Assembly: GCA_003024785.1 (NCBI GenBank)
Contig: PUQB01000025.1
Span: 744,001-808,000, forward strand
DNA: 64,000 nucleotides
Direction of reading: 5' to 3'
Origin: Selaginella tamariscina
Lineage: Eukaryota > Streptophyta > Lycopodiopsida > Selaginellales > Selaginellaceae
Part shown: piece after piece, positions 1 through 52,414 of the stretch
Layout of the letters: every line of letters starts with the position of its first letter
Position numbering within the stretch: the stretch's first letter is position 1
The notes under the pieces: generated by a model
The model's input: only the letters and a program-made list of their open reading frames with translations
Database searches by the model: none
Told to the model about the DNA's origin: nothing
Made by a program: the position numbers and the translations under genes

Positions 1-110
1 TGGAAACATCAATAGAAGATGCAGAAGATCTTGAACCATCTCACAAGCGGCTTAGACCTTCTTCGCCTCATTCAGAAGGTAATAGCGAAGAAGAATTGAT
101 AATGAATTGA
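1..110 (+). CDS. 3' end of ParB-like/degenerate methylase-like gene (partial)
   Basis: The reading frame entering the window encodes an acidic, Ser/Glu-rich tail with a basic patch (SHKRLRPSSP, a possible nuclear localisation signal), and stops with TGA at 108-110. It is the same as the C-terminus of the gene at 47498-50602, differing by silent or single changes. The start, the ParB-like region and the methylase-like fold are off the left edge. It is followed after 257 bases by the phosphatase-like gene, in the same order and spacing as in the internal element. It would be the nuclear protein encoded by the element, judged only from its near-identical sister copy. Confidence 0.8.
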   Translation, partial: ETSIEDAEDLEPSHKRLRPSSPHSEGNSEEELIMN

Positions 111-367
111 TAGAGTGATGAATAGTTGTAAATGAGTGTAACATAAGGCATTTTTGTATATTTCTTTTATATTTGTACAGAAAATAAATTCTCAAGGATT
201 AATGAAGCTTTTAGTTCAAACATGGGTCACACATTAACAAGGTAAATAATATACCTTGATAATTTTAAGGTCAGCTAATTATCATTTTGCAGATGTAATG
301 AAATAATTGAGAACATGGATTTTCAGCATTGCCATGAGGTAAGAGAGGGGTTTGGCGACAATTTCTT

Positions 368-1558
368 GTGCCACATGTCAGAATGACAGAGTTCATGCAG
401 GAAATGGATAATAATGCAGCTCAAAACATCGTTACCATGGGGGCCACTTCAGTTTTTGCATCATCATTTTTATTGGCTTCAGTTCCGAAATCAATTTCTT
501 CAGCGCATGCAATATCTGAATCTTGTAAGGATGATGTACAATTAAATGATGAAGGGATAGGCAACGAAATAGTGGCAACGGATAAATGTGAAAGGGAGCA
601 AACAAGTGATTTGCAAAGTATTCAAGAGGCAACGCTATCTCATGTTACTCATGGCCATATTGTGTTGTTGGATGTCAATGGTGTTCTGCTTCATCGACAA
701 AGGCCCGAGGATAGAAAAACAGAAATCAAACAAGGAGATTTCATTCCTTGTCATGGTAAATTTCGATATGATATTATTTTTCGTCCAGGGTTGGATCGTC
801 TCTTTCAAAAGCTTAAGGAGATGGGTGCGCTTGTGGGGATTTGGTCATGCATGCAGATTCATAACTTAACACCGCTGTTGAGTTTACTTAAGAAACATTG
901 TAGTGTTGCAGAAGAGGTGATTCGTAAAGATTGGATTTTTGACCAGCGAATGTGTTATAAACCTCTCGAATTTCACAATATAAGAAAGGAAAGCAAGCCA
1001 TACTTCTTCAAGAATGAAAGAATAATTGGGACTCATGGGGAGATCAGTCGCTTAAGGATAATGAAGAATGCACATATGTTAGTAGTAGACGACTCTCCTC
1101 AGAAGGCTATGCTCAACCAAAACATTGCTTGTATTCATCCAATCACTTTCGATCCATATTCTGATATCGATATCATGGATGAGCTAGTGAACTACTTGGA
1201 TACGTGCCTCAGAAAGAAGAATCTCGAAAATTTTTGTGAGCAGTATCCACCGTATCATACATTTCCTGAAGCTTTTCTTTCTCGTGATATTGAATTTTAT
1301 AAAATGAAGGATAGCAACCGGGCGCTTTATAATATTATTCTTAAGGAACGTCAGTTTTTAGATGAGCCTTTATGCAGACCTTCTCTTATCACATCTTATG
1401 TATTAACAAGGATGGCAACTCCCAATTGCATTCGTGAGAGTGTTAAGTGGTGGCAACAACATCAAGATATTGACCAAAATGATTTGATTAATCCGGAGAG
1501 TGATGATTTAGACAAAATGAAAAGATTTCTTTGTATGATAGAAAGAAAGTATTTATAA
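368..1558 (+). CDS. FCP1/SCP-type HAD-fold phosphatase-like protein, copy 1 (intact)
   Basis: A single uninterrupted frame of 396 residues; Met6 is an equally good start. The FCP1/NIF-type HAD domain runs from about residue 95 to 290. Motif I is LLDVNGVLLHR: the nucleophile Asp is present (residue 102), but the second Asp of the usual DxDGT is Asn (residue 104). Motif II is GIWSC (Ser160), and the distal acidic motif is VVDDSP (Asp241/242). Plant FCP1-domain proteins with D-x-N-G variants are known, so activity is uncertain. The first ~90 residues are low-complexity with no clear targeting signal. The C-terminal ~110 residues are unassigned. It sits in the 3' part of the TIR element, downstream of and co-oriented with the ParB-like gene, and so looks like transposon cargo. 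Unlike its sister at 50859 it carries no frameshift. Confidence 0.8.
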   Translation: MPHVRMTEFMQEMDNNAAQNIVTMGATSVFASSFLLASVPKSISSAHAISESCKDDVQLNDEGIGNEIVATDKCEREQTSDLQSIQEATLSHVTHGHIVLLDVNGVLLHRQRPEDRKTEIKQGDFIPCHGKFRYDIIFRPGLDRLFQKLKEMGALVGIWSCMQIHNLTPLLSLLKKHCSVAEEVIRKDWIFDQRMCYKPLEFHNIRKESKPYFFKNERIIGTHGEISRLRIMKNAHMLVVDDSPQKAMLNQNIACIHPITFDPYSDIDIMDELVNYLDTCLRKKNLENFCEQYPPYHTFPEAFLSRDIEFYKMKDSNRALYNIILKERQFLDEPLCRPSLITSYVLTRMATPNCIRESVKWWQQHQDIDQNDLINPESDDLDKMKRFLCMIERKYL

Positions 1559-1659
1559 AAAAATTAACATGTTGATAAGAAAATGATTTCATTTGTAATT
1601 ATGTTTGATAGTATTTCTTCATTATTGTAAACTATTTTTAGAATAATATGAATATTCTA

Positions 1660-1847
1660 AGATATTTTAGGAATATTCCTTACTAAGTAAGGTTATTGAA
1701 GGATTAATTAATTAATTAATTAATATTTAAGGCTTAATTACATATTAATTAAATGATTAATTAATAATTAAAACTTAAGTATTAATTAGTAATTTATTTT
1801 ATATTCCCATTTTCACGTATCATGCCCACTTTAGTTACAACGTGCAT
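1660..1847. repeat. AT-rich subterminal region and terminal inverted repeat (copy 1)
   Basis: Contains GAATATTC-type palindromes near 1648-1680, runs of TTAATTAA, and the terminal repeat at 1821-1847. Read on the minus strand the terminus is ATGCACGTTGTAACTAAAG followed by TGGGCATG, which matches both ends of the element at 37488-52410. Confidence 0.75.
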
Positions 1848-17259: not shown

Positions 17260-18740
17260 CTTAAAATGGATTTCAAAGACATGTTCTCCTCTCACTTCGT
17301 ACAAAACAGCAAATCATTATGCAATTCACCCATTGTCATGATACTACAGTTGCTCGCAGATACAAAGGCATGGCTTCAAAATCGACATAAGTCTTAGATG
17401 TTGTTGTTGATGTTGACAGATGCTACATAAGACTGCAGGACTAGTTCATTAACAATGTTGTGTTGAAGGCTTACTTGGCAGAATATAACAAGTACAAGTA
17501 CAGCGACAATGCTATAGAGGTATGTTCCACTTGTTGTGCAACTTATTCCATTAACATTTTCCTGAGTTACATCAATTTTAGAAGTTGTGCGACCCACCGC
17601 ATAACTTGTATTCGATTTCAGTACACTGCCATTGATGGACCATAAATCACACAACTGTGGACTTAGTGGAGTTACAAAGCAGGCGATGACTGCTGTTTGG
17701 ACAATGGCGATAGAGTACCTTCGAAATGTTATATATATATATCACTTAAACTGTTTCTATATGTATTAAAAACATCATATATAAGCTGATTATATCATAT
17801 CAACAACTCGTCTGTATGTCTTTAACTTCCTTCTAACAGGAACACCACTTGTATAATTGTATACGACAGACTCTTGAAGAGATGAATCTAGGATATTCTA
17901 GGAATATACTCCAACACAAAATATAGGTGACAGGTAATGTATACCCCAGGTATTATACATGCTTAACATTGTCTTATATGCAGACACTGGCACTTGATGC
18001 CACAGCGTAGTGAGAGAATGGTGGAAGCAGAAAAGCGAGAGGTAAGCATTCCTAATTTTCTGGATTTGTTCATCGATTTTCTGGTTTACAGGCTGCACTG
18101 ATGGGTTTTATTATTCGGTTCCTCCTCATCACCAAACAAAGAAGTTGCACGATGTCTAAATTAATATGCATGCTTGAAGATGTGCCTGTAGTTAGTGACC
18201 CAAGAATGAGCCAGTTTGAATATGATCTCCAAGCTACAGGTAACCTACTATTGTTGGAGATTTAATCATGTATGTACTTGCAGCCTTCTACACAGTGGAA
18301 CCTTTCCACCACCTACGTGCAGTTTCGGATAAAGATGAGGAATTTCACCAACAAGCCATTGAAGCAGCGAAACGCAACGATGATATCGCTAACTGAGGTG
18401 AAACGTGGACTATCTTTCAAGGAAGACGTGGAACTTGTGATGAAGAAAGTCATCCATTCATACTTGTTCGTGACACTGCTGCTGCAATGAATGTAATCAG
18501 GTCAACTCAGGGTCAACAAGCTTGGAACCTCAATCCCTCCCACGGAAACAACAACAGCTGGTTATTGCTGCTCTACCAAGGCCTAGAATGATGTTGTCTC
18601 AGGTACTGCATCAAAGGTCTACTGAGTGCACATCTTCGGTACCTTGGAAGACTGCTGAGTATAGATTACAGCCGAACCACCACGGAAGATGCTTGCTGTG
18701 CGAACAGAGCAGTCCCGCACTTCGTTGCTGATGAACATGG
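17260..18740 (+). pseudogene. Remnant of an unrecognised multi-exon gene, unit I
   Basis: A likely start ATG at 17265 is followed by short moderately GC exon-like blocks separated by AT-rich pieces. Recognisable coding patches include DFKDMFSSHFVQ (17265), a block near 17440-17520, a block near 18110-18240 (DPRMSQFEYDLQAT) and a longer one at about 18283-18520 (LTEVKRGLSFKEDVELVMK). The block at 18320-18500 is conserved in unit II at 53230-53400, where small indels put it in a partly different frame. I do not recognise the family and assign no function. The unit II copy is split by the 14.9-kb element at 37487/52411. Confidence 0.5.
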
Positions 18741-22904: not shown

Positions 22905-23745
22905 ACTCAAGCTAGATGGTGCCGACCCTCTCAGTCGGCAAGAGATGTAGAAGAACAAATCCTGCCGACTGAGATAGTTGGTGCCGACCTCTCAGATCGG
23001 CACTGAAGAGATAATGGTGCCGACTGAGATAGGATGGTGCCGTCCCTCTCAGACGGCACAAATGGGAAGACCCATTAACTGGTTTAAAAGAAATACTTGA
23101 GCCGCAAAGCAAAATAAACAAATTCAAAATACCTTGTGGCTGCCGACTGAAGAAGGATGGTGCCGTCACTCTCAGTCGGCACAAATGGGAAGACACATTA
23201 ACTCTGAAAAAAAAACATTGTGATACGGATACTTGAGCCGCAAAGAAAAAAAAATAAATCGAAAATACCTTGTGGCTGCCGACTGAACCAGGATGGTGCC
23301 GTCACTCTCAGTCGGCACAAATGGGAAGACACATTAACTCTGAAAAAAAACATTGTGATACGATACTTGAGCCGCAAAGAAAAAATAAACAAATCGAAAA
23401 TACCTGTGCCGACTGAACCAGGATGGTGCCGTCACTCTCAGTCGGCACAAATGGGAAGACATTAACTTGAAAAAAAACATTGTGATACGGATACTTGAGC
23501 CGTAAAGAAAAAAATAAACAAATCGAAAATACCTTGTGGCGGCCGACTGAACCAGGATGGTGCCGTCACTCTCAGTCGGCACAAATGGGAAGACACATTA
23601 TCTCTGAAAAAAGAAATACTTTGAGGTGCAAATCATAAAATACAGAAATTGCACATACCTTGTGGCTACCGACTGAGCAGGATGGTGCCGACAATCTAAA
23701 TCGGCACAGAAATCTCGATTGATTTACTTGGGCGATGCACGAATC
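22905..23745 (-). repeat. Tandem exon-like hairpin repeats upstream of the ParB/methylase gene
   Basis: About six to eight copies of a roughly 115-140-base unit. On the minus strand each holds a ~71-nt block bounded by a T-rich tract plus CAG at its 5' end and CACAAG|GTATTTT at its 3' end, which look like 3' and 5' splice sites. Inside is an inverted repeat, GTGCCGACTGA...TCAGTCGGCAGC, with an inner GTGACGGCACC. The block length is not a multiple of three, so the repeats are better read as duplicated 5'UTR exons or structural DNA than as coding exons. The outermost copy (~23710-23660) follows a leader with CTAGGGTTTT-type boxes. Confidence 0.75.
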
Positions 23746-37487: not shown

Positions 37488-37514
37488 ATACAAGTTGTAA
37501 CTAAAATGGGCATG
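37484..37514 (+). repeat. Left TSD (TTAA) and terminal inverted repeat of element 1
   Basis: TTAA at 37484-37487, then the terminus from 37488. Its ~28 bases match the right terminus with about three mismatches and one single-base gap. Confidence 0.85.
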
Positions 37515-40500
37515 GCTATAATCTCATTTCCTAATAATTAGCAATTTTAGCTATTTAATTAGCATTTTCTAATATTAAAGGAATTCTTTAAAATATATAT
37601 TTGAAAGAGAATATTCTTTAGAATATTCTATTTTGTATTCTACCCTTTAATAAATTATAGCATTCATTGAACAAAAATTAATAACATTATAAAAGTAGAA
37701 TGTATTAAATTATATAATATATTGCCTAATATAACAATTAAGGAAGAGCATAAGAGGTACATTATATAAATATTGATGTTGTTATTAAAATATTAATATT
37801 TAAATATAACATTATTAATTAAAAATTTGTAGTAGTAATAATATATATATAAAATCCTATAATAATATAGTCAATCTTCCATATCATTTTTTAAATTTAT
37901 ATAGTTAAGTATACAATTTGGTTATTATTAAAGAGTTTATAATAATTATGAATATTAAATATATATATTTTATAATTTTGTAATTGCTTTAAGCTTCAGA
38001 AAACATACATTCCCTTGCAGTTTTGTTAATCGTGACTTTATCAACGCTTCTTGACATCCACCCATATCGAATGGATTTAACATTTATAAAACATGCTGGG
38101 TCTTTTTGATTGGGAGACCATGTTTTCTCTAGGCATCCATTATATCTTTCGCTCTCCTTCTCGTGTCGCCTTTTTTGTGGTTTGAACCATGCAACCTTAA
38201 CAATACTATTTTTTGTGATTACTTCAGGTGTGTCGATAATTTGACCCATCCAAATAGGCTGATTATATGACGCATCTGGAGTAATGAGAACCATCATTAG
38301 TTTTTGAAGATCCTTGCAGCAATCAAAGTATGCTTTAGGTTTTTGGTTCCTTTGTCCAACAAAGTGTGGGGTTTGCACTTCCACATCACTACTGGCTTCT
38401 ATGTCGTCTATGCTCAGTGATGTCATTTTCTCCTCTCGCCACCTTGTTTTAGGCCAGAAAGGGTGTTGCAATTCTGTACTTGTGACAGTAGGCCCTTCCA
38501 ACTCTCGAACAACAGTCTCCCAATAGTTGACCACATGCTTATATAGTTCTGAGTAACCAGTTGCCTTATCAGAATTCTTTGGCATCGATTTTTTGAACCC
38601 ATGCCACATATTTTTTGATGCCATCAATAATAACCTCTTGTTCCTTGAGCTGGGCACTCAATGGAATAGGGTCTGGTTGTCCTTCTGGAGAAGTGGCTTT
38701 CCATCCTCTCCACTTTTGAAGAGCATTAAGCCCTCTTTCGGTAACCACTCCTGCTCTGATGGCCGTAACTTGTACTGCATAATAGGTATACCATCTCGTA
38801 TGGAGAAAAAAGAATTGTAGCGGCACAAGGTGACCAACTAAAGAATCACTCCCTTCTTTTATATACTCCTTGAGAAATTTTTTGAAGTCTGGCACTCAGT
38901 CACAGCAAAGCAAACTTTTTTTTGGAGATGCAATTTTCAAAAAGATTCATCATATGCGGTAAGGTAAGTGCACTTGTCCTTTTTGTAGAGTTGGAGACCT
39001 TGCTGAAGAACGCATCAATATCTTCATGAGTGTGATCAACCATAAGGAAACTGAGCGTGATTTTCAAACACACCTTTGGCAACAAGCATTGACAAGTATG
39101 CTAGCACATATCTAGAAAATAAAAGTAAGTATGAGCTTGAGAAACCCTTAAGTAAAATGATTTACCTATTTTTGTTCTCGCCTGCACAATTATCCATCTG
39201 TAAAAGCAAATGACGAGGAAGCTTATTTGATGTTGAGGACACTACACTATTTGAGCTAGATCCCTCCACTGAACCTGAACTCTCAACAGGGCCATCTGTT
39301 TTTTGTGCAGGTTGCTGACAATGCCTCTCATATTCCCAAGTAGCCTCAAGTGCAGATGTGTTCATGAGAGCATTATGTAAAGGTTGAAGGTGTTGTTTCT
39401 TCACTTTGAGATCACTGATAGGACTTGTCTGTGAGTGGGCTTCAAGGTTTCTGAAACACATGGCTAACGACCCAATAGTGAAATTGGAGTCGCTAGACCA
39501 ATGTGGAAGTGAAAAGTGTCCATATGACTCACAACCGTGTCCATGTGTTAGCACCTGTCAATGAAATCGGAAGTTTCATGACATTTCCAAGGCACTTTGG
39601 TGTTGCAAAGAGCTTTGGAATGCTGGTCTTTGAATGATCCATCTTGTCATGGATCAAGCACAGGTACTCTGATGGGTGTGACACAGAAAGCATGCGGTGT
39701 GCATAGTACTGAGACCGGCAAGTTTGTTGTGCAATCATGTGGGCCTCCATCTTCTTTGAATGGCAGTGATTTCCACCAAGGTTTTTGCACAAGCCTCTGC
39801 AGCCTTCAATGATGTACAAGTGTCACACTTGGAAAAGCTAGAGTGTTTTGCAATCTCCACATCCTTAAAATGAGTATTCCATATGTTGTTGAAGGTACCA
39901 GTGCAGATTGCTTGGAGCCCCATCAAACTGAGGCACTTGTTCACATGTTCACAGCTTCAATTGAGTGTAGATTGAAGGAAAACCTTGAGATTTTCCCTGA
40001 CCCCTGCATTTGTGGTTCGGCATTTGTGAGGCATCCTGTCTGCATTTGCTTCCACAAAAGCCTTGAGTATCTCTATGGCTGCCATGATGTGAGAGCGGGT
40101 TTTGACCAAGCGAGTGTTCCCATGAACTGAGGTTCGCGCTCCATCTAGCCACTTCATCCTCCGACGGTAGAACGTGGTCTTTGGGATCCCGTTATACTGT
40201 ACCAAGCTTTGAAGCAGATGGCCACCTTATTAAATACCATGGATGTACTCTGATAACCTGTGTCCGAGGCCATTCCATCAATACACCCAGTTAGTGCAGC
40301 ATATACAAACTCATGCCTTTGCTTTTGGGTGAGCATACGAAAGACATGTCTACATTGGGTAATTTCATTCCGGTCTGCCATCTGACAACACTTCTTCTTG
40401 CAACAGTCAATCGTGGAAATGCTCGTAACACTTTCGGAAGATGTAGGATCCATCTTTACCCTCTTGCTGAAACTTGCAGGGGAAGATCTACAACCCATGA

Positions 40501-41245
40501 ATCGCCTTTTTCTTACAATAGGACCAATGCAAGGAACCTCTTCAAATATGAGTTGTTCTTCCGGGTTGTTATTATTGAAATCCAACCCAGAATATGTTGA
40601 ACCATCTTGCCGTCTTAATTCAGATGTTCGCCACCTCACGAGGGATCCAGGATACAATGTGCCATTAGGTGAAACCTCTGTCACAACTACACCCACGAAG
40701 TCGGACCCTAGTTTCTCTTCTGACACTGCTTCCATTGGATTTATAGCTGTGATGATGCCTCTTCCGACTTCAATCTCACGAAGAAAGAGAATCACCTCAT
40801 CCATCACAGCAGGCAAGCCATCATCTGGTAAACTCGTGCTACTATTTTTTGTGACTCTGCATATTCTGTGTCAGCCTTGACTTCATCCAAATTCCACAAT
40901 ACAGGAGAACCCTCCTCAAATTCCATTCCAAGAACCTCAACATGCTTGTAAATGGTGTTCACCCATACGTACACACAAGATCCTTGGGCAATATTGTGAC
41001 ATGATGCATTATTATCTCGAACTTCCACAGTTCCAGTGCCAACTATCTCGTTGTTCCGAAGAAGACATACTTTATCTCCAGTATTAAACATATTGTCCTG
41101 CACATAAATAATTGTATTATTTATGATATCTGTTTATGCAATATTTCTAAGAAATCTGAATTACGGTTACTTAATAATATGCATATGCAATAATACATAA
41201 TTATGTTTAGAGATAATATCTCATGTTTGATTAATACAACTGATG

Positions 41246-42000
41246 GGCGGGATTAATCCCGCCCACGAATCCCTCCGACGAGGAACGGTCGGCGGGATTA
41301 ATCCCGCCGCCGACTCAACCCCTTCGGAGAGAGTCGGCGGGATTAATCCCGCCTTGGACTCCCTCCGACAAGGAAGACGGCGGGATTAATCCCGCCGCCT
41401 CTTCCTCCTGGGGGAGTCGGCGGGATTAATCCCGCCGACTCTCTCCGACGAGGAAGGTCGGCGGGATTAATCCCGCCGCCGACTCCCCTGGAGAGAGTCG
41501 GCGGGATTAATCCCGCCGGACTTCCTCGTCGGAGAGAGTCGGGATTAATCCCGCCGGACTCCCTCGGGAGGAAGAGGCGGGATTAATCCCGGCTCTTCCT
41601 TGTCGGAGGGAGTCCAAGGCGGGATTAATCCCGCCCACAATTCTTACGACGGGGAATGGGTGGCGGGATTAAACCCGCACATAACTCTCTCCAAAACTAT
41701 GATTTCAAAGAGATCTCGGGATAAATCCTGTCCCCAAATCCTTAAAACAGGGATGTGGTGGCGAGATTAATCCCGCCACCCCTTCCCTGCCTCCTAAAAT
41801 GGTTGGCGGGATTAATCCCGCCGACAACTCTTTCTAATAAATTCTGGTAACTCTTCATCAGTTGAGAAGGTTATCGACGGGATTAATCCCGCCACTCTTT
41901 TTCAGTGGCGGAGAAGCATTGCCCGAGAGATGGTGGCGGGATTAATCCCGCCACCTCTTCGAAGAGGCGAAAAAGAAATGGCCGGATTAATCCCGCCGCC
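41246..42000. repeat. Palindrome array L (18-bp palindrome GGCGGGATTAATCCCGCC)
   Basis: About 15 exact or near copies, beginning at 41246, 41291, 41336, 41379, 41419, 41460, 41500, ~41538 (short), 41576 and 41618, then more widely at ~41661, 41758, 41803, 41876, 41934 and 41981. A weaker copy lies at 42038. Spacing in the dense part is 36-45 bases. Some copies extend outward to a 28-base perfect palindrome (GAGTC flanks at 41414-41441). The array lies in the apparent first intron of the transposase-like gene (42172-41104). GC content is far above the neighbourhood. Confidence 0.95.
41336..41635. repeat. 300-bp inverted repeat built from eight palindromes
   Basis: Not only the palindromes but also the spacers mirror each other about a centre near 41487. 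The spacer after 41353 (TTGGACTCCCTCCGACAAGG) is the reverse complement of the one before 41618 (CCTTGTCGGAGGGAGTCCAA). The next inner pair (41397-41418 and 41556-41575) also mirror, as do the innermost flanks (CTCTCTCCGACGAGGAAG and CTTCCTCGTCGGAGAGAG). Confidence 0.9.
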
Positions 42001-42679
42001 CCGGTTAACCTAGAATATTAAGTTAAAAGGATATTTAAACGGGATAAATCCCTAACGGAATATATTATAATCCTAATGCATTTCTAAACCCCTAAATTGT
42101 AATTTTAAGAGAGAATGTAAGAGAGTGAATCTTATAAGTATTTTTAAATTTGTTTATAATACTTACTTGTAAACAGCACTGAAGGCGCCGTGCTTTCCTA
42201 TAAAGAATAGCACCCAATTTAATCTCGCTCCTGAGATGATCACTATGAAGAAAAAGAAGATTAAAGAGTGAAATACAGAAATGAAGAAAACCCTTTGCCG
42301 GAGAAAGAACCAGATCTGAATTTGAGTGGGAAATTAAATGCATTTTCAAATTTACATGTCAGACCGACAATACATATGTCAGAAATTCAAATTTTTTAAA
42401 AAGAACAGAAAATAAAATTTAAGATGAGTTGACACAAATATCCGACACTCTGACATATATACTCTCCAGTTCCAATGAGTATTTTAAAATTGCATTTAAT
42501 GTTATTCAAGTGATTCAAGCTGTTTAATATTACGAAATTTTAGACTATATTCTACATTCTTAGTATTCAAGTATATTTATATATATATATATATATATAA
42601 ATATATACTTATACAATAAATAAATTGATATATTATTATGTATCATTTAAAATATATTCATAGTCTGTTTATTATTATT

Positions 42680-43365
42680 ATTTTCTTAATTACTCGAGTA
42701 TTTAGTTTTCATTTCCTAGTATCAATGGGATATTCTTTAATATTTTATTAATATTTGAAGAATATTCTAATATTAAACCTGATTATCATAATTAAATTAG
42801 TCTTGTTCTTAATTATTGCAGTAATTATTCTACATTTGTATATATTAATGGGATTTTCTCAATTAATTTGTTATTATTTCAAGAATATTCATGTGTTAAA
42901 CCTTATTATCAATATTAAATTAATACACACTATGAACATATTTTAAATTATACATAATAATACATCATTTTATCTAATATATAGTCATATATAGTTTTAA
43001 TAATATATATATTAATATCATTTCCTTAATTACTTGAGTAATTAATCTTCTTTATATTAATGGGATATTCTTTATTATTTTCTTATTATTCCAAGAATAT
43101 TCCAATATTAAACATGATTATGATAATTAATTTAGTTAATTATTTGAGTACTTAATTTACATTTGTATATATTAATGGGATTTTCTCAATTAATTTCTTA
43201 TTATTTCAAGAATATTTCAATGTTAAACCTTTTTATCAATATTAAATTAATATATATTATTAAAACTATATATGGCTATATATTAGATAAAATCATATAT
43301 TATTATGTATAATTTAAAATATGTTCATAGTGTGTTTATTAATATTATTTTCTTAATTATTCGAT
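42680..43365. repeat. AT-rich direct repeats in the element centre
   Basis: At least four diverged copies of a 120-190-base unit with TCAATGGGATATTCTTTA or TTAATGGGATTTTCTCAATT followed by TTATTATTTCAAGAATATTC and ATTAAACCT. They start near 42720, 42845, 43055 and 43175. No coding function is apparent. Confidence 0.7.
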
Positions 43366-43600
43366 GTTTGTTTTGCACACATATATAAACACAATCATAA
43401 ATTTACACACGCATTACAAGAACTTACAAAAACACATATGCACACACATGCACAACCCTAAACCAAACTGAAGAAATATGTTGCTTCTTTATTGAAAACA
43501 TCATGTTCAACGCATGTATGATATATGTACTCAATCTGTGTGTATGTAACACATTGAATTTACATGTGTAATATTTATATTAAGCTTGTTGGGAGCAAAC

Positions 43601-44180
43601 CCTAAACCCTAAACCCTAAACCCTGTGTATACATGTGTGTACAAAAATAATTTTTCAACACTCTCTCTTCACACCATGCATGATCCATCCTAAACCCTAA
43701 ACCCTAAACCCTAATATGTAACACAATGAATTTACTCATGTAATATGTATGTATGTCTGTGTGTATACACGTGTGCATGTATATATGTGTACTCTGTATG
43801 TATATATGTGTACTTTCTGTCTTCTCTCATACATACACACCATGCATGATCCATGTTAATATGTACTGTCTCTCTTCTCTCAAACATACACACCATGCAT
43901 GATCTATAATATGTACTCGGTCTCTAATATTATGTACTAATATGTATGTATGTCTGTGTGTATAATACACACCATGCATGATCCATAATATGTACTGTCT
44001 CTCTTCTCTCATATACTATGTATGTATATCTGTGTATAATATGTGTAAGTATATATGTGTACTAATATATGCAATGTGTACAAAAATAATTTTTCAACAC
44101 TCTCTCTTCTCTCATACATACACACCATGCATGATCCATCCTAAATCCAAAACCCTAAACCCTAAACCCTAAACCCATGT
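43601..44180. repeat. Three short interstitial telomere-type (CCCTAAA)n tracts
   Basis: Tracts of three to four CCCTAAA units at about 43602-43624, 43691-43713 and 44152-44176, within repeats that also carry CATACACACCATGCATGATC. They match the plant telomere repeat and the telo-box of plant promoters, and lie in the intergenic region between the divergent genes. Confidence 0.85.
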
Positions 44181-44514
44181 AATATGTATGTATGTCTGTG
44201 TGTATACACGTGTGTATGTATATATTATGTGTATTAATATATGCAATGTGTATGTATGTATTGATACACATGAAACTTTAACACTCTCATGGACACACAC
44301 ATGTTAAATCCCTGCATGATTTATATTTTTGGGGTGTATGTGATACACCCACGCACACGCACGCGCTAATAATATAATGAAAGAATATTCGTTTAGGGCG
44401 AATCTATATTTTATTCTTTTTAGGGTTTAAGTATATTCTCAGAAGGAATATTCTATTAGGGTTAATATATATATTTAATTCCTTTAGGGTTTAGGTATAT
44501 TCTTAGGGTTTCAA

Positions 44515-44560
44515 GAGGCGGCGGCTGTGAAATCGGCGGCGGCGGCTGTGCACACAGGTG
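44515..44560 (+). other. Candidate leader exon of the ParB/methylase-like gene
   Basis: A GC-rich (GGCGGCGGCTGTG) stretch ends in GCACACAG|GTGAGA, a good splice donor. The next good acceptor with an ATG behind it is TATTTTGCAG at ~47459, which would place array R in a 2.9-kb 5'UTR intron. Inferred from splice motifs only. Confidence 0.4.
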
Positions 44561-44562
44561 AG

Positions 44563-44565
44563 ATC

Positions 44566-44596
<31 letters not shown>

Positions 44597-44865
44597 ATAT
44601 GTATAGGAGTGTGCGTATAAATTTATTTATTAGTTTTATCTCTCGCACACACACGCACACTCCTGTGTATGTATATGTGTGTGTGGGTGTGTGTTTGTTT
44701 ATCTGTATGATTTTATTTGTTTCGCTCACACACGCATACACACGATATACATATACACATATATATATATATACCTATATACATATATACATACATATAT
44801 TATGTGTACCAGTATCTGTAAATTTTTTTTTATTGATCTATCTCTCCCACACACACGCACACTGC

Positions 44866-44921
<56 letters not shown>

Positions 44922-45558
44922 ATCAATGCATATTAACAAATAGTATACAACACTAGTTTATATATATGCTTATATATTCATATGGGTTATATATCTATAT
45001 ACACACATATATATATGTGTGTGTTTATCTGTATAATTTTATTTATTTATTAGTTTTATCTCTCGCACACACACGCACACTCCTGTGTATGTATATGTGT
45101 GTGTGTGTGTGTGTTTGTTTATCTGTATGATTTTATTTGTTTCGCTCACACACGCATACACACAATATACATATACACATATATATATACCTATATACAT
45201 ATATACATACATACAACACTAGTTTATATATATGCTTATATATTCACAGACTCTCTCTCTTTCTCTATGGATTATATATCTATATACACACATATATATG
45301 TGTGTGTTTATCTGTATAATTTTATTTATTTATTAGTTTTATCTTTCGCACACACACGCACACTCCTGTGTATATATATGTGTGTGTGTGTGTTTGTTTA
45401 TCTGTATGATTTTATTTGTTTCGCTCACACGCATACACACGATATACATATACACACATATATATACCTATGTACACACATATATTATGTGTACCAGTAC
45501 TGTATAATTTTATTTATTTATCTATCTCTTGCACACACACGTACACTCCTATACATAC

Positions 45559-45589
<31 letters not shown>

Positions 45590-45665
45590 CACACACACAT
45601 ATATATATGTGTGTGTTTTTATCTGTATAATTTTTTTATTTATTAATTTTATCTCTCGCACACAC
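44563..45665. repeat. CA/GT/TA minisatellite with ~180-420-base higher-order units
   Basis: Four copies of a block beginning TCTCGCACACACACGCACAC, at about 44640, 45060, 45345 and (diverged) 45527, each followed by GT-rich, TTTCGCTCACAC and TATATA parts. (CA)n at 44867-44905 is the longest pure run. Long open frames through it are artefacts of the repeat. Confidence 0.85.
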
Positions 45666-45680
45666 GCTAAGCCCCTCGAG

Positions 45681-47155
45681 CGGCGGGATTAATCCCGCCG
45701 CTATAGGTTTATGGCCTCGGCGGCGGGATTAATCCCGCCGCTATATGGTTGGGGCCATGGCGGCGGGATTAATCCCGCCGCTCACCCATGCCCTGCGCGG
45801 AATGCGGCGGGATTTATCTCGCCGGCAATGGCCTGTGTGAAGGCCCTAATGGGCGGGATTAATCCCGCCGGATTCCGCGCAGGGCATTTACAGGGGATGG
45901 GCGGCGGGATTAATCCCGCCGCTCATGAGGCTAACCGAAGAGCCTGCATGAAAGATCCTGCACGGAAGGCTAACCGAAGAGCCTGCATGACATGTCCTGC
46001 GCGTAAGGCGGCGGGATTAATCCCGCCGCCCAGGGAATTCACGCAGGACATGAACGGCGGGATTAATCCGGCCCCACGCTCATGCCCTTCGCGGAGGGCG
46101 GCGGGATTAATCCCGCCGCTCAGGCACTTCCGCAGGATATAAGCGGCGGGATTAATCCCGCCCCCACCCATCCCTGTTCAAAATGCCGCAGCCAATATAT
46201 ATGTGTGAGCGCATGATTTACGAGAGGGCGGCGGGATTAGTCTCTCCGAACCTTCATTACCCGGTGGCGGGATTAATCCCGCCACCCTTCTTTTTTCCTC
46301 CATTGGTATGTTGAATCAATCCCGACTAACTCTGTCTGAGACGGAGAAGGTTTACAAAATACCAATGGAGGGAACTGAGAAGGGTGGTGGGATTAATTTC
46401 ACCATCCCTTACATGGTGGGCGGGATTAATCCCGCCGCGTACGCATGCCCTGCGCGGAATCGGGCGGGATTTATCCCGCCGCCATTGGCCTCCTGAAGGG
46501 CCTAGGCGGCGGGATTAATCCCGCAAGATTTCGCACAGGGCATTGGCGTTCGGCGGGATTAATCCCGCCGACTAAGGCCGAGTGAAGGGCCTGGGACGCG
46601 GGATTAATCCGCCGGACGCATCCCTGCGCGAATCGGGCGGGATTTATCCCGCCGCCATTGGCCTGCCTGAAGTGCCTAGGCGGCGGGATTAATCCCGCCC
46701 GATTCCGCGCAGGGAATTGGCGTCCGGCGGGATTAATCCCGCCGCATAGGGACCGAGTGAAGGCCCTGGGCGGCGGGATTAATCCCGCCGAGTCTTCAAT
46801 GCCTGTTGGAGGAATGAATCCCGCCACCCTTCCTTTTTTTCTCCATTGGTGAGTCGGACCAATCCCAAACGTTTCTGTCTGAGACGTAGAAGGTTTTCAA
46901 CATACCAATGGAGAGAATTGGGAAGGGTGGGGAAATTCATTTAACCATCACTTACATGGTGGGCGAGATTAATCCCGCCCCCTTTCTGGAGTCACTGAAG
47001 GGGTGTGAGAAATAAATCCTGCCCAGTTCTCTCTGAACCGAGAAGGGTGGCAAGATTAATTCCGCACTCCCGTTCAAGGCCTCCAGAAAGGTGGCGAGAT
47101 TAATCCCGCCCACTCTTTCAGGAGGCATTGAAGGGGTGGCGAGATTAATCCCGCC
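45681..47155. repeat. Palindrome array R (same 18-bp palindrome)
   Basis: About 25 copies of GGCGGGATTAATCCCGCC or near variants (GGCGGGATTTATCCCGCC is frequent), from 45682-45699 to 47138-47155. The spacers are longer than in array L and carry their own inverted pairs, such as GCCCTGCGCGGAAT with ATTCCGCGCAGGGC (45789/45869 and 46447/46695). A ~174-base unit is repeated at 46443-46546 and 46617-46722. The array lies upstream of the ParB/methylase-like gene, probably in its first intron. Open frames (Gly-Gly-Ile-Asn-Pro-Ala repeats) exist on both strands only because the palindrome has no stop. Confidence 0.95.
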
Positions 47156-47269
47156 GCACCTTCCATGTGAATATATATGTGTATTAGTATATATAAGTTG
47201 CATATCTCATTTTATTTACTTTTATCATCTTATCATAATATTTCGAGTAAAAGCTAGGAATCTATGTAA

Positions 47270-47356
47270 AACTGTCCAGAGCTCACATTTGTGGTGGTTC
47301 TAAAACGAAATGTTATCTTTCTTTTGCACTAACACAAATGTGAGCTTCGGACAGTT
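47270..47356. repeat. Isolated foldback hairpin in the leader of the ParB-like gene
   Basis: The left arm (47270-47293, AACTGTCC..AGCTCACATTTGTG) and right arm (47333-47356) are reverse complements, apart from a two-base mismatch in the middle. The loop is about 39 bases. It sits about 140 bases upstream of the start codon, in the apparent intron. Confidence 0.85.
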
Positions 47357-47497
47357 AATTACGTCTACTTCTCTCTGTGTATTATTTTTGTATATTCGGG
47401 TTTATACAAGTGTGTGTGCGTTTTTATATAATTTATATTATAGTGTATTATTTTGCAGAAGGACGATTTGATCAAACAAGGAGATCGAGTCATTAGT

Positions 47498-50400
47498 ATG
47501 GAGTCGTCGTCAAATTCTGGGTAAGAATTAAAATAAAATCTGTTATACTCGGATACTTGAACTAATCATTTTTGTATTCAGATGTGGAATTGAGGTGACA
47601 TTAAAGACAAGAGCAGGAGAAGAGATGGGCAGGGGGATTCTGGAATCAACTTGGCCATATTTTAAGATAAATGGGAAGCGCATTGGAGCAACCATGGCTG
47701 CTGTCAAATTAACCTCTGTCACATCTCATGGACAAGCAAAACAATGGAAAGTAGATTCGCTAGTCAAGCACCCGAAAGCAGGCTGCGAACCCAGATTGGA
47801 CGATCTCGACACATATGCCTTGTTCCATCCAATGTCACGTTCTCGGATCCAGAGGTCGTCAGTTACAACATTAATTTCGGGTGGTTTTGTCGACTTGTGG
47901 ATAATGACGTTCACGTGTTCACTAATGATGTTGACCTTGGAGTTCTTCTTCAACTCAACGAAAGCCCATCTATGGAGGGGATCCATCTGGATGTCTACTT
48001 CGAAAATCTTCAGACTCATCGAGTAGGTGTATTGTCAGGAGATATTGCTTCACAATACAGAAAATCAGCAAGTGAAGCAATCTTCCCTCTTCACATTGAA
48101 GAAGAACACAGCGACATCATAATGGAGATTGAGAGGGTGGCTCGGTCTCAGGTTCTCTACAGATCACGTTCAATTTGCTTAGGGAGCTTTGGGAGCTGGA
48201 AGAGTGTACCGAGAACACTAGAACAGCTGCAGTCGGGGATCACACATGTTGATTCGGATCGCAAAAGAAAATCATCAATCGTTTTGTCAGCTGCACCTGT
48301 GGCATCTCATGCTGCAATAAGTCACAAGGAAATGATGTTGGATGATAAGATTTATCCTTGTAGGGTTAAATATTGCAGCGTCAACCCAAACTTCAATTAC
48401 AGGCCACTCAACCAGGAACGTGTAGCTGAGCTCATGGAGAAGATGAAGGACGACAATTCTTATACCGTTCCACATAATGCTGTTTTGTGTCCATACTATG
48501 AAAGAAGGAAGGGCGCTGACAAAGTCTGGATCACAACACCAGAACAACTCATGAAGATTCAGACGGAGAATAAAAAATCTATCAAGTACTACATCATTAG
48601 TGGCCAGCACACAATAACGGCAGCCCAACGACTTCTCGAGGAACACAACAAAGGAACGATGGCAACAAAACTTTCCGAGCATACCCGTGAGAAGCTGACA
48701 AAAAGATCGGCGTTTTTAGCTAAGCCGAATCTCACAATCGAGCAGTACCATAAGTTATCGGCGGAATGGGACGCTGCCGACACCAACCACTACAACAGCA
48801 AAATATGGGAGAAGTTTAAACACACGCGAGCCGTGTGGGAATCTCTTCAGCGACCACAAAGAGCTACCGCAGGGAATACACAATCTGCGGAATACCGGGT
48901 AAGCAAATTGTTTGGGCGGGATTTATCTCGCCGGTATATTAATCTGTCTTTTTCCTCAGAGAGTTGAAGAAATTGCAGCAGTTGATTTTGCCCAGGTGGG
49001 CGGGAAGGAAACATCCTTTCTGATGATGTTGATTTCTTGCCCCGAAGATAAGATCTTTGCCAAATGGTTGGGGATTATGGAATCCTTTTCAAAAGGAACA
49101 CTGAAGAAGAAGCAGACAAGTGAAGGGGAGCCCTCAGAAAAGTCTGCAAAGAAACCCAGTAAGACGCCGAAGGCTAAGTCTGTTCAATCTACAAAGGATG
49201 TAGACAACGATTTCAAGCTCACATGGTTGAAGCCTTTAAATGGAACAACGATGGAGGAGATGGAAGTCTTGGCTGATTTGGTGATCGATGGCAAACTACA
49301 AATTAATAACAGCAGCCCAACCTCTCCTTTTCATCTCAAGGCAATGGAGTTGAAGACGGTCAGGCATTTCAAGGAGTGGTTGGGAATACACTGCCACAAA
49401 CTGGGTTGGACCTCGACTTCAACATATGAAGAGGTCAGCAAATATTTGCATGTGACGAACGATGATATGCTTGTCGAATGGGTGAACCAATCGGAAGATC
49501 TGGGCAAGAATCTATTGCACGCCAACGCCAAAAAAGGGAACATTGGGATGACGCCTTCTCTTATGGCAGTCCTTCAGCAGCGGAGAACCGAATTGAACCT
49601 TATAAAGGAGGATGCTACAAATCACGACAAGCCCTACAGATGTTTGTTGTTAGATTCGGAGACTTTATGGGGTAACATCACTGCTTGTAGGAAACCGTTT
49701 CAATTGTTCGTGATGGATCGGCGGGTGTCAAAAAATCTTTCGACAGATAGGGCACTAGAGGATCTGGTGGAGAAACTTAGCCGTGCAAGCATATACATAG
49801 AAGGTATTTATTATTGAATTCATGCTTGCGCTCTTCACTGATACCTACTTTTTCAGGTATTTATTTCTTGATTCTTGCTCATGTCACCGATACTTTTGCC
49901 TTCGCCTTCGCCAAGAAGAATAGACATCGTTGGACAGGATTTTATATGAACGATGCTAATCCCAAGTGCATTGATACCGTTGTTCACTTGGTTGTTAGGA
50001 ATGCGCCAAACAATTTCAAGCTTCCAAATGACTGGCCAGGCATCTGTTTGCACTCCAACGGCCCTGAACCTCCATCCGATACACCGATAGGTATGAGTGA
50101 CGTATTCGGCAATGTACGTTATCCAAACATTACAAGTCAAGCGGCACGGAGCATCGTCAACTTGATTAGGGGTCCTCACAGTGATGCGTGGGTTTTTGAC
50201 TACTGCACTAGGGGGTCCGTCTTGAAGGAGTGTTACCTTCGGCATACATGTGTGTTTGCCGTTGAAAAGGATAAGACCATGGTTGAGGACCTGAACAAGT
50301 GGATAGATTGGGTCTCAACTGAGTACCCCAACGATTCCATAAAGGCGTATTTGAGAAAGTTCCCTCCAGATAAGTGCGATAGCTCTGAAGGTGAATCTGG

Positions 50401-50602
50401 TTCAATCTCGGAGTCTGAGAACGAACTTCAATCAGATATTAGACCGGAAGTTATCTCGAGGAGTACAGAACATTCGCACACTCCAGGACCCATGGAAACA
50501 TCAATAGAAGATGCAGAAGATCTTGAACCATCTCACAAGCGGCTTAGACCTTCTTCGCCTCACTCAGAAGGTAATAGCGAAGAAGAATTGATAATGAATT
50601 GA
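47498..50602 (+). CDS. ParB/Srx-like + degenerate permuted DNA-methylase-like protein (element 1)
   Basis: Start ATG 47498. Introns at 47521-47581, 48899-48959 and 49804-49856 all have GT-AG ends and restore frame; total is near 970 residues. An apparent frame change between about 47690 and 47830 is unexplained (tiny intron or frameshift). The first ~270 residues are unassigned. A ParB/Srx-like region runs ~48355-48640, with RPLNQERVAELMEKMKDD and then ISGQHTITAAQRLLEE; GQH-T replaces the usual G-x-H-R. A Lys-rich linker and a helical region follow. In a permuted methylase fold, LFVMDRRVS (~49705) sits at the DPPY position and WVFDYCTRGSVLKECYL (~50186) at motif I, both degenerate. The tail is acidic with SHKRLRPSSP, a possible nuclear signal. 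It probably binds DNA but is unlikely to methylate it. The phosphatase-like gene follows by 256 bases. Confidence 0.7.
48914..48932. repeat. Degenerate palindrome copy inside intron 2 of the ParB-like gene
   Basis: GGGCGGGATTTATCTCGCC lies within the 61-base intron 48899-48959. It is the only copy of the array palindrome noticed outside the two arrays. Confidence 0.8.
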
Positions 50603-50858
50603 TAGAGTGACGAATAGTTGTAAATGAGTGTAACATAAGGCATTTTTGTATATTTCTTTTATATTTGTACAGAAAATAAATTCTCAAGGATTAATGAAGC
50701 TTTTAGTTCAAACATGGGTCACACATTAACAAGGTAAATAATATACCTTGATAATTTTAAGGTCAGCTAATTATCATTTTGCAGATGTAATGAAATAATT
50801 GAGAACATGGATTTTCAGCATTGCATGAGGTAAGAGAGGGGTTTGGCGACAATTTCTT

Positions 50859-52041
50859 GTGCCACATGTCAGAATGACAGAGTTCATGCAGGAAATGGAT
50901 AATAATGCAGCTCAAAACATCGTTACCATGGGGGCCACTTCATCATCATTTTTATTGGCTTCAATTCCGAAATCAATTTCTTCAGCGCATGCAATATCTG
51001 AATCTTGTAAGGATGATGTACAATTAAATGATGAAGGGATAGGCAACGAGATAGTGGCAACGGATAAATGTGAAAGGGAGCAAACAAGTGATTTGCAAAG
51101 TATTCAAGAGGCAACGCTATCTCATGTTACTCATGGCCATATTGTGTTGTTGGATGTCAATGGTGTTCTGCTTCATCGACAAAGGCCCCAGGATAGAAAA
51201 AAAGAAATCAAACAAGGAGATTTCATTCCTTGTCATGGTAAATTTCGATATGATATTATTTTTCGTCCAGGGTTGGATCGTCTCTTTCAAAAGCTTAAGG
51301 AGATGGGTGCGCTTGTGGGGATTTGGTCATGCATGCAGATTCATAACTTAACACCGCTGTTGAATTTACTTAAGAAACATTGTAGTGTTGCAGAAGAGGT
51401 GATTCGTAAAGATTGGATTTTTGACCAGCGAATGTGTCATAAACCTCTCGAATTTCACAATATAAGAAAGGAAAGCAAGCCATACTTCTTCAAGAATGAA
51501 AGAATAATTGGGACTCATGGGGAGATCAGTCGCTTAAGGATAATGAAGAACGCACAGATGTTAGTAGTAGACGACTCTCCTCAGAAGGCTATGCTCAACC
51601 AAAACATTGCTTGTATTCATCCAATCACTTTCGATCCATATTCTGATACCGATATCATGGATGAGCTAGTGAAACTACTTGGATACGTGCCTCAGAAAGA
51701 AGAATCTCGAAAATTTTTGTGAGCAGTATCCACCGTATCATACATTTCCTGAAGCTTTTCTTTCTCGTGATATTGAATTTTATAAAATGAAGGATAGCAA
51801 CCGGGCGCTTTATAATATTATTCTTAAGGAACGTCAGTTTTTAGATGAGCCTTTATGCAGACCTTCTCTTATCACATCTTATGTATTAACAAGGATGGCA
51901 ACTCCCAATTGCATTCGTGAGAGTGTTAAGTGGTGGCAACAACATCAAGATATTGACCAAAATGATTTGATTAATCCGGAGAGTGATGATTTAGACAAAA
52001 TGAAAAGATTTCTTTGTATGATAGAAAGAAAGTATTTATAA
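50859..52041 (+). pseudogene. FCP1/SCP-type HAD-fold phosphatase-like gene, copy 2 (frameshifted)
   Basis: Nearly identical to 368-1558. The catalytic region is the same: LLDVNGVLLHR with Asn in place of the second Asp, GIWSC, VVDDSP. A nine-base deletion removes VFA near residue 28. One extra A near 51673 shifts the frame after DELVK, giving a short alternative end and a stop at 51722. The original C-terminal frame is still open from 51679 to 52041. The truncated product would keep the whole HAD core, so partial function cannot be ruled out. It lies in the 3' part of element 1, about 370 bases from the right terminus. Confidence 0.8.
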
Positions 52042-52382
52042 AAAATTAACATGTTGATAAGAAAATTGATTTTGAGCATCTTACAGAGTAGTTATATATG
52101 TGTGTTATAACATACGTGTGTGTGTGTGATGTGCATACACTTACAACCTTTCATTTGTAATTATTTTGATAATATTTCTTCATTATTGTAAACTATTTTT
52201 AAATAATATGAATATTCTAAGATATTTTAGGAATATTCCTTACTAAGTAAGGTTTATTGAAGGATTAATTAATTTAATTAATTAATATTTAAGGCTTAAT
52301 TACATATTAATTAAATGATTAATTAATAATTAAAACTTAAGTATTAATTAGTAATTTATTTTATATTCCCATTTTCACGTAT
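52042..52382. other. AT-rich subterminal region of element 1
   Basis: Includes GAATATTC-type palindromes (52208-52240) and TTAATTAA runs, with a short GT microsatellite near 52117 missing from copy 1. GAATATTC palindromes also lie near the left end (37610-37636). Confidence 0.65.
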
Positions 52383-52414
52383 CATGCCCACTTTAGTTTA
52401 CAACGTGCATTTAA
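52383..52414 (-). repeat. Right terminal inverted repeat and TSD (TTAA) of element 1
   Basis: Catgcccactttagtttaca plus acgtgcat on the plus strand, then TTAA at 52411-52414. Identical in position and nearly in sequence to the end of the copy at 1821-1847. Confidence 0.85.

Follow-up and report, generated by a model that had tools for sequence, protein, structure and literature searches.

A DUF7869 DNA transposon with palindrome arrays at high copy number in Selaginella tamariscina

What kind of mobile element is the insertion of almost 15 kb that lies in a 64,000-nucleotide stretch of the Selaginella tamariscina genome (contig PUQB01000025.1, positions 744,001 to 808,000; hereafter the window, numbered from its first base), and how could an element of that size become abundant? 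A first-pass annotation of the window proposed a transposon with terminal inverted repeats (TIRs), three genes, and palindrome arrays. Taken as a whole, our explanation, which we consider probable, is that the element is a member of a family of cut-and-paste plant DNA transposons that is young, high in copy number, mostly full length, and Sola-like, and that may encode, more speculatively, a protein that binds the arrays and opposes silencing.

The element and its copies in the genome

The proposal of a genuine cargo-bearing TIR transposon was borne out: the element is flanked by TTAA on both sides, it ends in inverted repeats of about 28 bases, and an uninterrupted allele is found in unit I, a paralogous host unit within the window. 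In the window copy the TIRs align over 27 to 28 bases; the alignment contains one extra A and 3 mismatched positions. When the element flanks are joined, their alignment to unit I continues through the junction; a gap of 18 bases farther upstream is unrelated. A second copy, truncated by the edge of the window, stops at the identical terminal base and is followed by ATAT, not TTAA.

Genome counts were made over the 300.7-Mb assembly (1,391 contigs), and the reversed-pattern control was 0 for each pattern. The assembly has 26 matches to the chlorophyll a/b-binding family (best E value, 3.8e-50), as expected of a photosynthetic host; among 14 control genomes, a cyanobacterium alone gave a signal. 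Assembly size, introns, and the AAACCCT tracts of the element agree with a plant. With up to 1 mismatch the left end has 1,755 sites and the right end has 1,534, which means that the termini are not confined to this locus. With up to 2 mismatches, a 29-mer from the transposase gene has 2,095 sites, and a 28-mer from the gene for the NIF (NLI-interacting factor-like) phosphatase-like protein has 1,951. These counts, together with those of the palindromes given below, indicate that gene content is common to the copies, as the annotation's proposed check had asked. The family size is approximately 1,500 to 2,100 copies. Multiplying 1,534 to 2,095 copies by 14.6 kb would give the element about 22 to 31 Mb, or 7 to 10% of the assembly, if copies are mostly full length and the assembly is nonredundant.

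Most copies appear to be full length, at about 14.6 kb. For each pattern the places of the first 100 exact matches were listed, and pairing figures rest on these. We used all 100 listed right ends and 89 of the 100 listed left ends, omitting the 11 beyond contig C213, where the listed right ends stop. A correctly oriented right end was present within 40 kb of 44 of the 89 left ends among the matches listed. Of these pairs, 27 were 13.65 to 15.09 kb apart (median, 14,626 bases; two of the 27, in C191, use one right end), and 10 were more than 17 kb apart and were probably mispaired or nested. Likewise, 54 of the 100 listed transposase sites had a listed NIF site within 16 kb on the expected side, 46 of them at 10 to 14 kb, while 3 had one on the wrong side. 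Twenty-five copies measured 12.7 to 15.5 kb; for most, the examined region was that 11.5 to 17 kb from the left end.

Other counts from the same exact matches weigh against a predominance of complete copies: 7 of the 44 end pairs are only 4.0 to 11.9 kb apart, 45 of the 89 left ends have no partner among the matches listed, and 46 of the 100 transposase sites have no listed NIF partner. The seven short pairs, in C213, C172, C136, C132, C42, C156, and C1, are possible internal-deletion derivatives. Element ends doubled in tandem were observed in C80 (near 563730 to 564238) and C191 (near 284258 to 284567), reflecting either nested insertion or abortive repair. Three copies, C1293 (with an ATGG duplication), C102, and C125a, are nested within other copies, as read by eye.

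Judged by sequence identity, the family is young. Over the 1,188-bp NIF frame, 29 copies are 97.1 to 99.7% identical to the second window copy (29 of 33 sequences were aligned, the rest being dropped as short or without a match). In the right-end search the best 40 of 1,818 candidates were scored, and 39 other copies, thus top-ranked ones, were 100% identical (rounded) to the query over its initial 351 bases. A segment of about 76 bp (52073 to 52148) is present in the window copy and is missing from the second window copy and the 39 other scored copies.

Positions of the element, its parts, and related features in the window
Feature	Position	Strand	Remarks
DNA transposon	37488..52410		14,923 bp; target-site duplication, TIRs, empty allele in unit I, genome-wide copies
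Left target-site duplication, TTAA	37484..37487		Read at element edge
Right target-site duplication, TTAA	52411..52414		Read at element edge
Left TIR	37488..37514	+	27 nt; genome count made with commonest form seen
Right TIR	52383..52410	-	28 nt in window copy; 27 nt in form counted genome-wide
Transposase gene, DUF7869	37989..41091	-	Two exons, 54-bp intron at ~39112-39165; start codon and splice sites inferred
Palindrome array 1, GGCGGGATTAATCCCGCC	41246..41997		16 copies (<=4 mismatches), 10 exact; upstream of transposase start
AT-rich centre of element	42000..45680		Microsatellites and plant-telomere-like AAACCCT tracts
Palindrome array 2, GGCGGGATTAATCCCGCC	45682..47155		27 copies (<=4 mismatches), 14 exact; upstream of rightward genes
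Accessory gene	47498..50602	+	With introns, ~890 aa; gene model read by eye; ParB-like/methylase-like by motif only
Single diverged palindrome	48915..48932		In inferred accessory-gene intron
NIF (NLI-interacting factor-like, HAD) phosphatase-like gene	50859..52041	+	Pfam match; frameshift near 51690 in window copy
Empty target site, paralogous host unit I	17551..17554		Single TTAA, no insert
Second copy, right end only	1..1847	+	~98% identical to window copy

Beyond the element, positions 1936 to 63784 of the window comprise a large host unit in three incomplete copies arranged in tandem, about 81 to 95% identical, that contain pieces of RCC1, protein kinase, and gypsy-like reverse transcriptase/RNase H/integrase. 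A tandem repeat with a 136-bp unit lies near these host units (23019 to 23708).

A candidate D-D-D transposase

In the window copy, the leftward gene matches DUF7869 in pieces (E values of 2.5e-16 and 1.8e-10) and is interrupted by several frameshifts. Both exons are open in copy C113, where removal of the 54-bp GT-AG intron yields a protein of 1,021 aa that matches DUF7869 with an E value of 9.1e-47, the sole Pfam match passing the cut-off. The doubt expressed in the annotation about a piggyBac-type transposase was justified: there is no piggyBac profile match. Frameshifts occur in the element genes of the window copy, several of them at A runs where C113 is open; they may represent decay or assembly error.

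A read-through search at an E value of ≤0.001 returned two relatives of the transposase, P0001 (full length, from a Logan contig) and P0002 (from Mytilus edulis). Both are DUF7869 proteins with full or partial similarity to the transposase and the same conserved motifs, at 24 to 35% identity; neither is known to have element ends or cargo. The motifs IHDKMDHSKT, LQMDNCAGENKNR, and GHTHEDID align with these distant relatives, and IHDKMD-like, QxDN, and GHTHED.D motifs are invariant across all three proteins, with D484, D637, and D677/D679 (C113 numbering) conserved. This suggests a candidate D-D-D active site. Because of these motifs, and because its count matches that of the ends, we interpret the DUF7869 protein as a probable cut-and-paste transposase of the RNase H type, which would bind the ends, excise the element, and insert it with a 4-base stagger. 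If this is true, DUF7869, a domain of unknown function, would be assigned a definite task, that of transposition with a 4-bp stagger. A structure model obtained via P0001, with a predicted local distance difference test (pLDDT) score of 29.5, was too poor to show an RNase H fold.

No relatives of the transposase were found in viral contigs. A search of prokaryote genomes yielded one 3.2-kb contig with DUF7869 pieces, from an Acidimicrobiales metagenome-assembled genome, that is probably a eukaryotic contaminant; it also has a weak Ulp1-type protease match slightly below the cut-off.

The annotation held that the element matched no known transposon superfamily, which proved too strong. As characterized in PMC10741241, Sola elements have a D-D-D transposase, 4-bp duplications, and TIRs of 11 to 1,124 bp, are mostly 2 to 9 kb long with some exceeding 15 kb, and occur in moss; a Physcomitrella Sola1 is listed in PMC9033089. 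Our element shares with these descriptions the 4-bp duplication, the TIR length, the size, a candidate D-D-D transposase, and a plant host. The likeness is one to published descriptions. An alternative hypothesis, to which we give somewhat less than an even chance, is that DUF7869 elements form a separate superfamily that has no kinship with Sola; a literature search for DUF7869, which found nothing, speaks for it, and the shared traits just listed argue against it. We infer that the element is Sola-like in behavior, a comparison of traits only, and do not file it as Sola.

Palindrome arrays and accessory genes

The sequence GGCGGGATTAATCCCGCC is an 18-bp perfect palindrome, repeated in two arrays at a spacing of mostly 38 to 46 bases. 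The inferred start codons of the transposase and of the rightward genes, which are divergent units, have the arrays upstream at distances of about 150 and 340 bases, respectively. The left end of the element and the start of array 1 are separated by about 3.8 kb, and the end of array 2 and the right end of the element by about 5.3 kb. In the element centre, at 43597 to 44176, there are short tracts of AAACCCT, which is the repeat unit of plant telomeres. Copy C113 has 14 palindromes in array 1 and 25 in array 2. Array 2 was found in all 5 other copies examined, with differing counts (the fetched stretches may begin within the array), and the diverged intron palindrome was present in all 5 as well.

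The palindrome has 27,128 exact sites in the genome (control, 0). All of the 100 listed sites fall on contig C1, in clusters, and many of them are as far from a listed transposase site as expected. Allowing up to 2 mismatches, we counted 100 sites in 152 kb of element DNA versus 1 in the 141 kb of other sampled DNA on which its near-restriction to the element is judged. The palindrome core carries 1.7 to 1.9 bits per position, and its flanks carry 0.27 to 0.49, a contrast that owes something to the choice of sites by core resemblance, which tempers the argument from conservation. To us the arrays resemble sites at which a protein docks. As such, the palindrome, with its many thousands of nearly element-only sites in sampled DNA, is a ready probe for its putative binder.

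The NIF protein matches Pfam PF03031 (E = 6.8e-12; 45.8 bits versus a cut-off of 21.8), and its frame is open in the second window copy (368 to 1558; 396 aa). Phosphatases of this kind usually have DxD as the first catalytic motif. Here it reads DVN, and the protein may therefore be inactive; its target or docking partner may be the RNA polymerase II tail. The accessory protein contains NPNFNYR...YYIISGQHTITAAQRL, which is ParB-like, and VFDYCTRGSVLKE...VFAVEKD, which is methylase-like; neither assignment has support from profiles, the PDB, homology, or fold. Of the three gene identities first suggested, DUF7869 transposase-like and HAD (NIF) phosphatase-like thus stand, and the ParB/methylase label is one of motifs only. 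Searches gave that label no backing: no homologue of the accessory protein, and no match in Pfam, NCBIfam, PHROGs, or the PDB or by fold, points to ParB or methylase. A single-sequence model of the ParB-like region has a pLDDT of 45.8, and its PDB fold search gave no hit at an E value of ≤0.001. At the same threshold, neither the NIF nor the accessory protein has a homologue among 5.8 billion proteins. The accessory gene was seen in the window copy and five other copies; C658 has all three of the long exon frames open, and the gene is present with various breaks in C113, C926, C686, and C1281.

We speculate that the accessory protein, or the transposase, binds the 18-bp palindrome, by analogy with the VANC protein of VANDAL elements, and that the bound protein would hold both promoters accessible in the face of host silencing. 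Among DNA transposons, it is usually short nonautonomous copies that multiply. Anti-silencing by array binding would explain the amplification of full-length over short copies. In its strongest form, this hypothesis is that an unclassified DUF7869 transposon evolved its own sequence-specific escape from silencing, through an accessory, perhaps ParB-like, protein that loads onto the 40 or so palindromes that each copy has near its two promoters, and that this let complete, autonomous 15-kb copies reach about 2,000 (27,000 palindromes, 7 to 10% of the assembly). We offer this form as a tentative and rather doubtful proposal. The recent spread of some 2,000 mostly full, gene-bearing 15-kb copies provides a natural test of silencing escape.

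A different reading of the palindromes, which we consider less likely than not, is that they are transposase binding sites or a structural device such as cruciforms, with no counter-silencing role. Perfect palindromes can extrude as hairpins, subterminal repeats serve as transposase binding sites in CACTA elements, and the transposase is the sole DNA-acting protein of the element that we identified with some confidence. The arrays, however, are not subterminal, and they adjoin two inferred gene starts. We regard as improbable the proposal that the arrays and accessory genes are host DNA that was captured and is carried along passively, of no use to the element. It draws on the NIF frame, where purifying selection is nonsignificant (15 synonymous changes, 31 nonsynonymous changes, and 1 stop; ratio, 0.55; p = 0.065), a result that also counts against our explanation. 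Against passive carriage, the genome counts of NIF and palindromes match those of the transposase, and the palindrome core is conserved while the spacers have diverged.

Target sites and resemblance to known systems

Target-site duplications were read in two sets of copies. The left-end set comprised 40 copies found with a TTAA-containing query, of which 36 were used (four lacked the right region) and 33 were readable at both ends. The right-end set comprised 20 copies from 39 matches; 16 had the left region, and 9 were readable at both ends. An exact 4-bp duplication was present in 16 of 33 copies in the left-end set (shuffled-pairing mean, 2.1) and in 5 of 9 in the right-end set (mean, 0.8). 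Those of the left-end set were TTAA (5 copies), ATAA, AAAA, TTAT, TATC, ACAA, TTTA, TCTA, and AAGA, and one copy had a 5-bp duplication; those of the right-end set were ATAT (twice), CTAT, GTAT, and CTTT. The insertion stagger is 4 bp, in a variable, mostly AT-rich target that is not TTAA specific. The 17 of 33 and 4 of 9 copies with no exact 4-bp duplication speak against this; some of them, such as C113, C1022, and C147, look off by one base, and C653, which has ATAA in one reading, was misplaced in the duplication count by fuzzy end matching.

The TTAA flanks first reported are therefore correct for the window copy and fail as a family rule, about half of the sampled copies having an exact 4-bp duplication, usually not TTAA. 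Membership in a TTAA-specific superfamily (piggyBac or Kolobok) is very improbable. The exact TTAA duplications that favor it, in the window copy and C1093, C691, C457, and C756 (of 33), belong to copies recruited by a TTAA-containing query, whereas the right-end set has TTAA in 0 of 5, and its varied duplications exclude a piggyBac/Kolobok-type specificity. Nor is it credible that the copies arose by segmental duplication rather than transposition, as the tandem host units in the window might suggest: the outer flanks of the copies compared differ by eye (among 20 left flanks compared, only L011 and L015 were the same), so that sampled copies have flanks of their own, the element termini are constant down to the last base, and the empty allele carries a single TTAA, which together rule duplication out.

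Among known systems, piggyBac, Kolobok, and KolobokP resemble the element in their 4-bp duplications and in the TTAA at the window copy. They differ in that our family lacks TTAA specificity and a piggyBac or Kolobok profile match, only DUF7869 passing its cut-off among the Pfam matches to the transposase, and in that its ends start with 5'-AT, whereas Kolobok ends are 5'-RR according to PMC9587614. The Sola descriptions consulted do not include approximately 2,000 near-identical, mostly full-length 14.6-kb copies, two accessory genes, or arrays of an 18-bp palindrome.

For the arrays, the nearest parallel is VANDAL21, an Arabidopsis Mutator-like element. According to PMC5735166 and PMC10398659, its VANC protein binds a motif arrayed in the noncoding parts and introns of VANDAL21 and removes silencing marks. 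VANDAL21 differs in having another transposase and a 9-base directional motif in place of the 18-bp perfect palindrome, and the likeness between VANC and our accessory protein is an analogy of array layout. As described in PMC5735166, VANDAL21 resembles our element in carrying a short motif in many copies, in noncoding and intron sequence and nearly restricted to the element, in having arrays that vary between copies, and in encoding proteins besides a transposase.

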